Below are positions 10,507 through 49,202 of a stretch of 64,000 bases of DNA, piece after piece (the stretch's first letter is position 1; each line of letters starts with the position of its first letter). The position numbers were made by a program, and so were the translations under genes. Origin of the DNA: Gordonia hongkongensis (GTDB lineage: Bacteria; Actinomycetota; Actinomycetes; Mycobacteriales; Mycobacteriaceae); assembly GCF_023078355.1 (NCBI RefSeq), contig NZ_CP095552.1, positions 3,348,001-3,412,000 of the forward strand, in the 5' to 3' direction. Below the pieces are notes generated by a model. That model made no database searches and was not told the origin of the DNA. It was given only the letters and a program-made list of their open reading frames with translations.

Positions 10507-12432
10507 GTGTGTGGTCTGCTCGGCCTGCTGACATCCGACGGAACGGCCGCCGATGTCGTCGAACCGGTGGCGGTGGCCTCGCACTGCATGCGGCATCGCG
10601 GACCCGACGAGCCCGGTACATGGCACGACGACGACATCGTGTTCGGGTTCAATCGCCTCTCGATCATCGACATCGAGCATTCGCATCAGCCGCTGCGCTG
10701 GGGCCCGCCCGAGAATCCCGACCGTTACGCGCTGGTGTTCAACGGCGAGATCTACAACTACCTCGAGATCCGCGCCGAGCTGGCGAAGGACGAGGGGGTG
10801 CTGTTCCGGACCGAGGGTGACAGCGAGGCGATCGTCGCAGCGTTCCACCACTGGGGCCCCGACGCGGTCAAACGGCTTCGCGGCATGTTCGCCTTCGCGA
10901 TCTGGGACACCGAGAACCGCTCGCTCTTCCTCGCCCGCGACCCGTTCGGCATCAAGCCGCTGTTCGTGGCGTCGGGCCCCGGCGGGCTGATCTTCGGCAG
11001 CGAGAAGAAGAGCCTGCTCGAGCTGATCGAACGCGTCGGGCTGTCGACCGAGCTCGATCCCCGCGCGATCGAGCACTACACCGTGCTGCAGTACGTCCCG
11101 GAGCCCGAGACGATCCACGCGTCGATCCGGCGGCTCGAGTCGGGCTGCCACGCGACCGCCACGCCGGGCAGTCCCCTGTCGATCCGGCGGTACTTCACCC
11201 CGCAGTTCGGTGTTCGCCCGGTCACCGAGGCCACCCGGCAGAAGCGGTACGACGAGATCGCCGACGTCCTCGCCGATTCGGTCGCCAAGCACATGCGCGC
11301 CGACGTCACGGTCGGGTCGTTCCTGTCCGGCGGCATCGATTCGACGGCCATCGCGGCGCTCGCGATCCGGCACAACCCCGACCTCATCACCTTCACCACC
11401 GGCTTCGAGCGCGAGGGCTACTCGGAGGTCGACGTCGCCGCCGAGTCCGCGGAGGCGATCGGCGCTCGGCATGTCGTGAAGGTCGTCGGGCCGTCGGAGT
11501 TCATCGAGTCGATCCCGTCGATCGTCTGGTACCTCGACGATCCGGTCGCCGACCCGGCACTCGTCCCGCTGTACTTCGTGGCCGCCGAGGCGCGCAAGCG
11601 CGTCAAGGTGGTCCTGTCCGGCGAGGGCGCCGACGAGTTGTTCGGCGGCTACACGATCTACAAGGAACCGCTGTCCCTCGCCGCGTTCGACCGGCTGCCC
11701 CGTGCGCTGCGTCGTGCGGCGGGCAAGGTGTCCGAGCGGATTCCGGAGGGGACCCGCGGCAAGAGCCTGCTGCACCGCGGGTCGCTCACGCTTGAGGAGC
11801 GCTATTACGGCAACGCCCGCAGCTTCGACGACGCGCGGCTCCGCGCGGTGCTGCGCGACTACCGTCCCGAATGGACCCACACCGACGTGACCACCCCGAT
11901 CTACGCGATGAGCCAGGGCTGGGACCCGGTGGCCCGGATGCAGCATCTCGACCTCTTCACGTGGCTACGCGGCGACATCCTGGTCAAGGCCGACAAGATC
12001 ACCATGGCCAATTCGCTCGAGCTGCGGGTGCCGTTCCTCGACCCGGAGGTCTTCGCGATCGCCGAAGGTCTCCCCCACGACGAGAAGATCGCGCACGGCA
12101 CAACAAAATACGCGTTGCGCAAGGCGCTGGAGCAGATCGTCCCGGCGCACGTTCTGCATCGCAAGAAGCTCGGCTTCCCGGTCCCCATCCGCCACTGGCT
12201 GGCCGGCACCGAGATGTTCGACTGGGCGCACGACACGATCATGCATTCGCAGACCGATCACATCTTCGCCAAGGACGCGGTTGTCGCGATGCTCAACGAG
12301 CACCGAGAAGGCGTGGTGGACAACAGCCGTCGACTCTGGACGGTCCTGATGTTCATGGTCTGGCACGGCATCTTCGTCGAGGGCACGATCGTTCCGGAGA
12401 TCATCGACCACACCTATCCCGTGCGGGTCTGA
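10507..12432 (+). CDS. asnB: Asparagine synthase (glutamine-hydrolysing)
   Basis: AsnB makes asparagine from aspartate, ATP and glutamine. The GTG at 10507 puts the nucleophilic cysteine at position 2 (M-CGLLGLLTS), as required for the class II glutaminase domain after Met removal; a frame extension of 12 codons upstream is therefore not used. HRGPDEPG and NGEIYNY are further glutaminase motifs. The synthetase domain has the PP-loop SGGIDS at 274-279. The 641-residue length matches the family. In mycobacteria the equivalent gene Rv2201 also takes part in cell-wall amidation or drug tolerance phenotypes, but plain asparagine synthesis is the safe reading. A hairpin at 12444-12476 follows. Confidence 0.95.
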   Translation: MCGLLGLLTSDGTAADVVEPVAVASHCMRHRGPDEPGTWHDDDIVFGFNRLSIIDIEHSHQPLRWGPPENPDRYALVFNGEIYNYLEIRAELAKDEGVLFRTEGDSEAIVAAFHHWGPDAVKRLRGMFAFAIWDTENRSLFLARDPFGIKPLFVASGPGGLIFGSEKKSLLELIERVGLSTELDPRAIEHYTVLQYVPEPETIHASIRRLESGCHATATPGSPLSIRRYFTPQFGVRPVTEATRQKRYDEIADVLADSVAKHMRADVTVGSFLSGGIDSTAIAALAIRHNPDLITFTTGFEREGYSEVDVAAESAEAIGARHVVKVVGPSEFIESIPSIVWYLDDPVADPALVPLYFVAAEARKRVKVVLSGEGADELFGGYTIYKEPLSLAAFDRLPRALRRAAGKVSERIPEGTRGKSLLHRGSLTLEERYYGNARSFDDARLRAVLRDYRPEWTHTDVTTPIYAMSQGWDPVARMQHLDLFTWLRGDILVKADKITMANSLELRVPFLDPEVFAIAEGLPHDEKIAHGTTKYALRKALEQIVPAHVLHRKKLGFPVPIRHWLAGTEMFDWAHDTIMHSQTDHIFAKDAVVAMLNEHREGVVDNSRRLWTVLMFMVWHGIFVEGTIVPEIIDHTYPVRV

Positions 12433-12443
12433 TTCCCCGACAA

Positions 12444-12476
12444 CCGAAGCCGCCCACGAATCCGGGGCGGCTTCGG
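12444..12476. terminator. Bidirectional terminator between asnB and the Gdx exporter gene
   Basis: A perfect 12-bp stem, CCGAAGCCGCCC at 12444-12455 with its complement at 12465-12476, closes a 9-nt loop. It starts 12 bp after the asnB stop and lies 11 bp beyond the end of the leftward exporter gene, so it serves both. Confidence 0.8.
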
Positions 12477-12487
12477 TGGCGACGGGA

Positions 12488-12802
12488 TCAGTGCGCGAGC
12501 TTGAGACCGATGACCCCGCCGACGATCATCACCAGGAACAGCGCCTTGAGCAGCGAAACCGGTTCCTCACCGGTGGCCATCGCATAGACGACGGTCAGCA
12601 CCGCGCCGATACCGACCCACACCGCATAGGCGGTCCCGACCGGCAGATCGCGCATCGCATACGCCAGTCCGACCATGCTGGCGACCAGCGCGACCCCGAA
12701 CACGGCCGTCGGACCCAGCTTGCTGAAACCCTCCGACTTGCCCAGCGCGGTTGCCCACACGGCTTCCAGGACACCGGACACGATCAGAACGATCCACGAC
12801 AT
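12488..12802 (-). CDS. sugE: SMR-family guanidinium exporter (Gdx/SugE type)
   Basis: A 104-residue, four-helix small multidrug resistance protein. The start MSWIVLIVSGVLEAVWATAL aligns with E. coli SugE/Gdx (MSWIILVIAGLLEVVWAVGL) almost residue for residue, including the essential membrane glutamate E13; LPVGTAYAVWVGIGAV in helix 3 is the SMR signature and the end GGVIGLKLAH matches too. Members with this signature export guanidinium in exchange for protons, as an antiparallel dimer. The start at 12802 is fixed by homology and by GGAGGGAG seven bases upstream. A guanidine-III riboswitch lies directly before the ribosome binding site, which strongly supports the guanidinium role. Confidence 0.93.
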   Translation of the reverse strand: MSWIVLIVSGVLEAVWATALGKSEGFSKLGPTAVFGVALVASMVGLAYAMRDLPVGTAYAVWVGIGAVLTVVYAMATGEEPVSLLKALFLVMIVGGVIGLKLAH

Positions 12803-12816
12803 GACGCTCCCTCCGG

Positions 12817-12857
12817 GCCGTCTTGTCGCACACCGGGTACAGCACCCCTCGTCCGGG
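12817..12857 (-). promoter_or_regulatory. Guanidine-III riboswitch (ykkC-III) controlling the Gdx exporter
   Basis: Read on the minus strand, the segment starts CCGGACGAGG, continues with GTACCCGG and ends CGACAAGACGGC. These blocks, in this order and spacing, are the conserved core of the guanidine-III (formerly ykkC-III) aptamer as I know it. CCGG pairs with the CCGG of GTACCCGG, and GCTGT can pair with ACGGC, giving the expected pseudoknot. The aptamer ends 3 bp before the GGAGGGAG ribosome binding site, so guanidine binding probably controls access to it. Family consensus is recalled, not searched. Confidence 0.85.
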
Positions 12858-12943
12858 AGTCCTCGATCGGGACTCCGTTCCAACGTCTCACGCCGGGGCG
12901 GGGGTGGCAACGTCAGACGCGTCACCACCCCGGAGAACCGGAC

Positions 12944-13978
<1,035 letters not shown>

Positions 13979-14038
13979 TCACCCGGACAGGTGATGACGC
14001 AGACAGGTGTCCACGCTACTCACTCATCGGCAAACGAC

Positions 14039-14070
14039 ACCGGCCGCACCCCAAGTGGGATGCGGCCGGT
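14039..14070 (-). terminator. Probable terminator downstream of the IscA/ErpA-like gene
   Basis: ACCGGCCGCA at 14039-14048 is the exact complement of 14061-14070, extended inwards by CCC/GGG with one mismatch, with a short AAGT-centred loop. It lies 27 bp past the stop of the leftward Fe-S carrier gene and before adoK, and is followed on that strand by GTGTCGTTTG. It would separate the two leftward units. Confidence 0.65.
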
Positions 14071-14097
14071 ACCGGAAAATTGCTGACGTGTACGGCG

Positions 14098-14457
14098 TCA
14101 GTTGAACGAATCGCCGCAGGCGCAACTGCCGGTGGCATTCGGGTTGTCGATGGTGAAGCCCTGCTTCTCGATGGTGTCGACGAAGTCGATGGTGGCACCC
14201 TGCACGTAGGGGGCGCTCATGCGGTCGACGGCGAGGGTGACGCCACCGAAATCGGTGGTGATGTCGCCGTCGAGAGTGCGGTCGTCGAAGAAGAGCTGGT
14301 ATCGCAGACCCGCGCAACCACCCGGCTGTACGGCGATACGCAGCGCGAGGTCGTCGCGGCCCTCCTGGTCGAGCAGCGCCTTGGCCTTCGACGCGGCTGC
14401 GTCGCTGAGGATGACGCCGGTGCTCGTGGCTGTGCCCGTTTCGTTCTGCACGGTCAT
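14098..14457 (-). CDS. erpA: HesB/IscA/ErpA-family iron-sulfur cluster carrier
   Basis: A 119-residue A-type carrier that delivers Fe-S clusters to target enzymes. The three conserved cysteines are in GGCAGLRYQLFFDD and in the C-terminal CACGDSF (CxC). The start MTVQNETGTATSTG at 14457 is chosen because the family begins about here; an in-frame extension of 67 codons upstream is Arg/Pro-rich and unlike the family. The M. tuberculosis equivalent is Rv2204c. Candidates in this window that need Fe-S clusters include LipA and QcrA, but its clients are unknown. Symbol by family resemblance; iscA would fit as well. Confidence 0.85.
   Translation of the reverse strand: MTVQNETGTATSTGVILSDAAASKAKALLDQEGRDDLALRIAVQPGGCAGLRYQLFFDDRTLDGDITTDFGGVTLAVDRMSAPYVQGATIDFVDTIEKQGFTIDNPNATGSCACGDSFN

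Positions 14458-48778: not shown

Positions 48779-49202
<424 letters not shown>

Follow-up and report, generated by a model that had tools for sequence, protein, structure and literature searches.

In a 2025 review, guanidine-III is predicted to be a translational switch that raises access to the Shine-Dalgarno sequence, and it is also described as shielding its mRNA from RNase E (PMC12186494). The guanidine-II and guanidine-III elements treated there are translational ON riboswitches, in which the ligand-bound fold frees the ribosome binding site. A ykkC-III element has already been listed in a Gordonia genome paper (PMC11117675). On the protein side, five residues of the guanidinium/H+ antiporter Gdx-Clo have been named, E13, W16, S42, Y59 and W62, with W16 conserved in Gdx and glycine or alanine at that position in the Qac subtype (PMC7695847). 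Given the review and the Gordonia listing (PMC12186494, PMC11117675), the switch analyzed here is of an already known type. The arrangement of aptamer and gdx gene is well understood and translational ON control is already in print; the fresh element is only a predicted hairpin that encloses the start codon. Among the matches listed by a full-text literature search, whose reach stopped short of the 2017 guanidine-III validation paper, there was no description of such a hairpin; that paper may or may not have drawn it already, and we do not claim that it is absent from print.

We analyzed a stretch of 64,000 nucleotides from Gordonia hongkongensis (contig NZ_CP095552.1, positions 3,348,001 to 3,412,000), referred to here as the window. 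The original prediction had recognized a ykkC-III aptamer on the minus strand from its conserved blocks and pairings, and a search of the whole window with the Rfam covariance models bore this out with a significant, full-length match to RF01763 at 12878-12812 (minus strand; model positions 1-67 of 67; E 2e-10), scoring 62.1 bits against a gathering score of 36 bits. The covariance search gave a single guanidine-III match in the genome (5.4 Mb, two contigs). The parts of the aptamer are as follows.

12812..12878, minus strand: guanidine-III (ykkC-III, RF01763) aptamer (62.1 bits, full model)
12870..12876, minus strand: P1 5' strand, GGAGUCC (sequence and fold)
12856..12862, minus strand: P1 3' strand, GGACUCC, its last C common to the pseudoknot strand (sequence and fold)
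12853..12856, minus strand: pseudoknot 5' strand, CCGG, with the conserved ACGAG after it (partner strand 12836-12833; relatives show two-sided changes)
12839..12845, minus strand: P2 5' strand, GUGCUGU (covariance match and core pairing)
12833..12836, minus strand: pseudoknot 3' strand, CCGG (pairing analysis of cores)
12815..12821, minus strand: P2 3' strand, ACGGCCC (covariance match and core pairing)

The window element resembles described RF01763 members in its full-length match, its P1, P2, pseudoknot and pocket blocks, its actinobacterial host and the SMR gene directly downstream; it differs by a U.C mismatch within P2 and is otherwise typical. All four pseudoknot pairs form, as do six of the seven P2 pairs, and the combination at the remaining one (T.C in the DNA) occurs in 24 of 97 distinct cores, the window included. 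We consider its identity as a guanidine-III aptamer practically certain, and on family knowledge it would bind guanidine. The placement originally predicted, 12807-12860, has the site right, but it omits the P1 5' strand (12876-12870) and wrongly includes the Shine-Dalgarno sequence; the 3 bp predicted between aptamer and ribosome binding site are in fact a gap of 0 nt, with P2 ending at 12815 and GGAGGGAG starting at 12814. The family, ligand class, type of downstream gene and translational control that had been proposed all hold as far as sequence can show, the last on the basis of this 0-nt spacing and of the modeled start-codon hairpin described below. The only other Rfam match above cut-off in the window is a bacterial class A RNase P RNA at 48781-49195 (minus strand, 249.6 bits).

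The pairings were examined across relatives in a test on 97 distinct cores, out of 127 rows, with 500 shuffles. Standard pairs filled 91.0% of P2 cells, compared with 77.2% in the shuffles (maximum 79.5%). For the pseudoknot the figure was 99.0%, which includes two odd cells of L048 caused by a one-base offset (by eye this locus reads C-G, U-A, G-C, G-C), compared with 97.2% in the shuffles (maximum 97.9%), none of which was as high. Two-sided changes produce G-C in L136 and U-A in L062, L074 and L079 at the first pseudoknot pair, and U-A in L056 at the second; by reading, L137 carries the same change as L136. Departures from pairing occur in L120 (C.A) and L138 (A.A).

Some relatives depart from the window in their architecture. 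In L136 (G031) and L137 (G030), a variant aptamer with compensated pseudoknot and P2 lies ahead of a pair of neighboring SMR genes (products of 104 and 119 aa), which perhaps encode a two-subunit exporter. In L133 (G012) and L073 (Gordonia effusa), the P2/pseudoknot loop is longer by about 26 bases, among them a CCUCC that could pair with the Shine-Dalgarno sequence.

Downstream of the aptamer lies the following gene.

12488..12802, minus strand: gdx-type SMR gene, 104 aa, start codon 12802-12800 (open reading frame; PF00893; 6wk5; five residues)

Its product matches the Pfam family PF00893 (Multi_Drug_Res) at 74.5 bits. The top-scoring relative among solved structures is the SMR entry 6wk5 (E 5.7e-22, 81.2 bits), which we take to be Gdx-Clo and whose sequence is identical to those of 6wk8, 6wk9, 7szt and 8tgy; the best EmrE-type entry scores 35.4 bits (E 1.1e-7). 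Sequence comparison finds E13, W16, S42, Y59 and W62 at the same positions as in Gdx-Clo, and the likeness to the Gdx antiporters thus comprises these five residues, the length and the best solved match, the window protein being known here by its sequence alone. We are very confident that the product is a Gdx, and from what is known of the family it would act by guanidinium/H+ antiport. That the name 'quaternary ammonium efflux' misleads, as had been argued, is a fair point but a mild one, as the NCBIfam model that carries it (NF008512, SugE equivalog) is the best of 21 models yet scores below its own cut-off (96.9 vs 126 bits). A second SMR gene, 45% identical, lies elsewhere in the genome (G000:C1:3517774-3518082), away from the single guanidine-III match.

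The window aptamer abuts the Shine-Dalgarno sequence of this gdx-type gene, that is, it occupies the 5' leader of a guanidine-related gene, and the same linkage was seen across genomes. In a genus set of 59 genomes (the window's included), searched with stricter filters that can miss weak matches, an aptamer above cut-off was present in 50, and in every one of these the distance from the first base of the CAAG block to a gdx-type start is 23-32 nt. A search for gdx in the nine aptamer-less genomes gave no match, one of them having only a 29%-identical SMR protein (E 6.7e-5). All nine (L139-L147) contain the kinase gene with asnB adjacent to it, indicating that switch and gene are missing there together. 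The kinase-asnB spacers of these genomes, read in six of the nine, differ, some having inverted repeats of their own. A second set consisted of the best 80 of at least 552 confirmed gdx relatives in named records; in 77 of these best 80 loci the aptamer lies directly upstream of gdx. The exceptions are L065 and L098, where the gdx relative has no guanidine-III match above cut-off in the locus sequence, and L106, which lies at a contig edge.

The two sets give 130 loci, of which 122 were used in the start and folding tests. Omitted were L048, L049, L056, L075 and L077 (Rfam match, missed by the text pattern), L065 and L098 (no match) and L106 (contig edge). Among the 122, the named Gordonia loci L040, L060 and L073 encode proteins identical to those of L016, L134 and L133 and are counted twice; counts given as distinct merge such duplicates only where the DNA is identical.

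The neighborhood of the aptamer-gdx unit varies. Within the flanks examined, 12 of the 50 genus loci have the kinase upstream and 10 have asnB downstream, and elsewhere the unit is placed differently. The kinase-gdx-asnB order of the window is shared with Gordonia amicalis L040, whose kinase and asnB products are 92% and 93% identical. A protein tree (121 proteins, 104 columns; L022, cut short, was omitted) does not group the genus together and contains nine label changes, at least three of them forced by starred branches, and a tree constrained to unite the genus, from which the two tandem-gene rows were removed, gave a borderline p-AU of 0.045. The tree and this value hint, short of proof, that the unit has moved between genomes.

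Other guanidine-related genes were also sought. The genome gave no match to the guanidine-I riboswitch and none over cut-off to the urea/guanidine carboxylase model, the best reaching 960 vs 1303.85 bits over positions 445-1119 only. A link between arr and guanidine has been proposed (PMC8492726). Here, arr is present in the genome about 3.2 Mb from the window aptamer in contig coordinates, and hence is not linked to the guanidine switch.

Two further features flank the unit.

12883..12915, minus strand: conserved upstream element TGACGTTGCC...GTGAGACGT, probably a promoter (TGACRTTGCC-type box)
12444..12476, no strand assigned: 12-bp hairpin in the gap between gdx and asnB, which converge (direct reading)

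Of 122 loci, 20 have a TGACRTTGCC-type box at a distance of 59-62 nt upstream of the pseudoknot strand, compared with 0 of 1768 control windows. This box is a trait of the window's own clade, its carriers including Kocuria, Mycolicibacterium and Dietzia records, and no canonical -10 was found in the window's upstream element. Among 118 distinct upstreams, 55 have a TANNNT -10-like motif that precedes the pseudoknot strand by 20-40 nt, in most cases by 25-35 nt, compared with about 1% of controls taken 150-1000 nt upstream, which are largely coding. From the positions of the two motifs, transcripts probably start close to P1, as would fit the RNase E protection described for guanidine-III (PMC12186494). 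More tentatively, promoter, aptamer and gdx may travel from genome to genome as a single small cassette. Downstream, the 12-bp hairpin is perhaps a terminator shared by gdx and asnB, and a terminator scan found no canonical terminators in 12400-14100. By eye, a further hairpin, GGGGUGG...CCACCCC, lies at 12901-12931 between the kinase gene and the switch and would belong either to the promoter region or to the kinase gene, as its terminator.

Between aptamer and gene, three stretches make up the predicted start-codon hairpin.

12819..12830, minus strand: switching strand UGCGACAAGACG; when bound, pocket and part of the P2 3' strand; when unbound, predicted 5' arm of the hairpin (modeled fraction 0.87; minimum-energy fold)
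12807..12814, minus strand: Shine-Dalgarno sequence GGAGGGAG, directly after P2 (sequence)
12795..12806, minus strand: CGUC-A-UGUCGUG, 3' arm of the predicted hairpin, including the AUG at 12802-12800 (start-region tests and fold)

In the predicted folds, UGCGACA-A-GACG (12830-12819) pairs with CGUC-A-UGUCGUG (12806-12795), placing the start codon in the stem. The nearly invariant aptamer strand CGACAAGACGG is complementary to YYGUC-AUG-UCG at the start codon, with the Shine-Dalgarno sequence enclosed between them. We compared this complementarity with a background of 291 starts from the window and the loci examined, with the in-frame ATG located two codons further upstream taken as the start of L044 and L045. 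The window duplex is stronger than with any of the 291 background starts, and 10 of 291 match it when the non-coding part alone is swapped. With 43 start regions of the window as the reference, duplex strength was at or below the 5% tail in 35 of the 50 genus loci. A non-coding GTC directly before the start was found at 52 of 111 distinct gdx starts compared with 17 of 291 background starts (Fisher 4e-20, relatedness ignored). The pairing weakens when only the eight non-coding nucleotides are swapped: the median rank of the real upstream is the 10th percentile of background, and 46 of 111 are at or below 5%. Sorted by genus into 40 bins, one of which pools unnamed genera and one of which stems from a mislabeled title, the loci have GTC in half or more of the rows in 23; in the window's own genus bin it is the commonest triplet (18 rows) but is found in fewer than half of the rows. 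With so little variation in the aptamer strand, covariation with the start region cannot be demonstrated, and partner shuffling over 13 column pairs of the start hairpin was informative at one only (q+7:a-5, 1 of 1000).

Folding ensembles were modeled for the same loci. The hairpin fraction in the window is 0.87, a value reached by none of 291 substituted starts, and it exceeds 0.4 in 72 of 122 loci (the other 50 do not) compared with 3.6% of 732 substitutions. This alternative hairpin, which would exclude the bound aptamer, is strong in the window ensemble and weak or absent in many relatives. In L055, L080, L091, L105 and L136 it is lengthened by matching bases of their own spacers. In 98 of 122 loci, the switching strand pairs downstream to a greater extent than when the spacer is shuffled (mean 0.53 vs 0.29). 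A broader measure for the hairpin stays below 0.2 in 29 of 122. The whole window leader folds modestly better than its shuffles (z -1.59; 16 of 200 equal it).

The bound state was modeled by forcing P2 and keeping the pseudoknot bases unpaired, a crude stand-in. On going from unbound to bound, opening the window start region becomes cheaper in the model, at 8.5 instead of 15.2 kcal/mol, a fall matched by 5 of 291 substitutions, and the unpaired fraction of the AUG rises from 0.34 to 0.81. The opening cost is lower when bound in 103 of 122 loci, with means of 11.1 unbound and 7.7 bound kcal/mol, compared with 10.8 and 9.9 for substitutions, so that, on average, the unbound start region is barely more closed than in the substitutions and the gain comes mostly from a more open bound state. 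At the loci nearest by tree path, L018 and L025, the hairpin forms, and the opening cost changes by only -0.9 and +0.8 kcal/mol. Separately, sequestration of the Shine-Dalgarno sequence alone, by pairing with the CUCCC just before the pseudoknot, was ruled out over 50 loci: its modeled mean unpaired fraction is 0.54 unbound and 0.48 bound, and is higher when bound in only 16 of the 50.

Taken as a whole, we give a probability of roughly 0.85 to the reading that a guanidine-III riboswitch acts at the level of translation on one guanidinium exporter gene, gdx. The aptamer and gene are observed side by side, with a start region complementary to the aptamer strand, and the predicted switching would proceed as follows. 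Without guanidine, the aptamer strand CGACAAGACG would pair with CGUC-AUG-UCG, holding the AUG in the stem and the Shine-Dalgarno sequence in the loop, and little exporter would be made. Guanidinium binding would stabilize the CCGG/CCGG pseudoknot and P2, both of which use the CGACAAGACG strand, freeing start codon and Shine-Dalgarno sequence so that exporter could be made. Since one strand would serve both pocket/P2 and hairpin, bound aptamer and hairpin should be mutually exclusive, and guanidine should accordingly turn translation ON, a direction of control that we hold to be highly likely. That the start-codon hairpin is the OFF state of the window is, from the modeled folds, probable, with less assurance. 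Compared with the guanidine-II and -III switches as described in the review (PMC12186494), the predicted OFF hairpin would hold the start codon and codon 2 in its stem, not only the Shine-Dalgarno sequence.

Other readings account for part of these data. Complementarity at the start might be a by-product of a conserved MSW protein start and of inheritance, with the Shine-Dalgarno sequence merely nearby and regulation following another local route. Ser2 (TCN) alone does give part of the pairing, the relatives do have common ancestry, and the 50 loci whose hairpin fraction stays within 0.4 fit this explanation; the drop in pairing when only the non-coding nucleotides are swapped, and the prevalence of GTC across genus bins, argue against it, and we regard it as rather unlikely. 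The aptamer could instead act mainly on mRNA lifetime, a bound aptamer near the 5' end blocking RNase E scanning and any start-codon effect being secondary. Such a role would agree with the protection from RNase E for which the review cites Richards and Belasco 2021 (PMC12186494), and with the TANNNT placement, by which transcripts may begin at or just before P1, but it leaves both the non-coding GTC and the 0-nt Shine-Dalgarno spacing unexplained, and the window itself lacks a TANNNT motif at that place. We consider it unlikely as the main mode of action, while family knowledge suggests that the mRNA may be protected from RNase E here as well.

It is also conceivable that the SMR protein is a multidrug (Qac) exporter and not a guanidinium exporter, in keeping with the SugE name of the nearest NCBIfam model and with the resistance to quaternary ammonium compounds that some Gdx proteins also confer (PMC12186494). 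Tryptophan at position 16, where Qac proteins have glycine or alanine (PMC7695847), the margin of 6wk5 over the best EmrE-type entry and the tie of the gene to a guanidine aptamer make this very improbable. Translational control of a guanidinium exporter, with the start-codon hairpin as its predicted OFF state, is the reading that we prefer.

These results assign a likely function to a gene that annotation would name drug efflux, and they describe a guanidine-response unit that genomes of the genus have or lack in its entirety. The predicted hairpin would open the switching step of actinobacterial guanidine-III leaders to direct test by a few point changes. More tentatively, actinobacterial guanidine-III switches may have a common platform in which the pocket strand CGACAAGAC doubles as an anti-start strand against a conserved non-coding GUC, the AUG and codon 2. 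If this is true, the first codons of the exporter and its leader would be constrained by the RNA switch.
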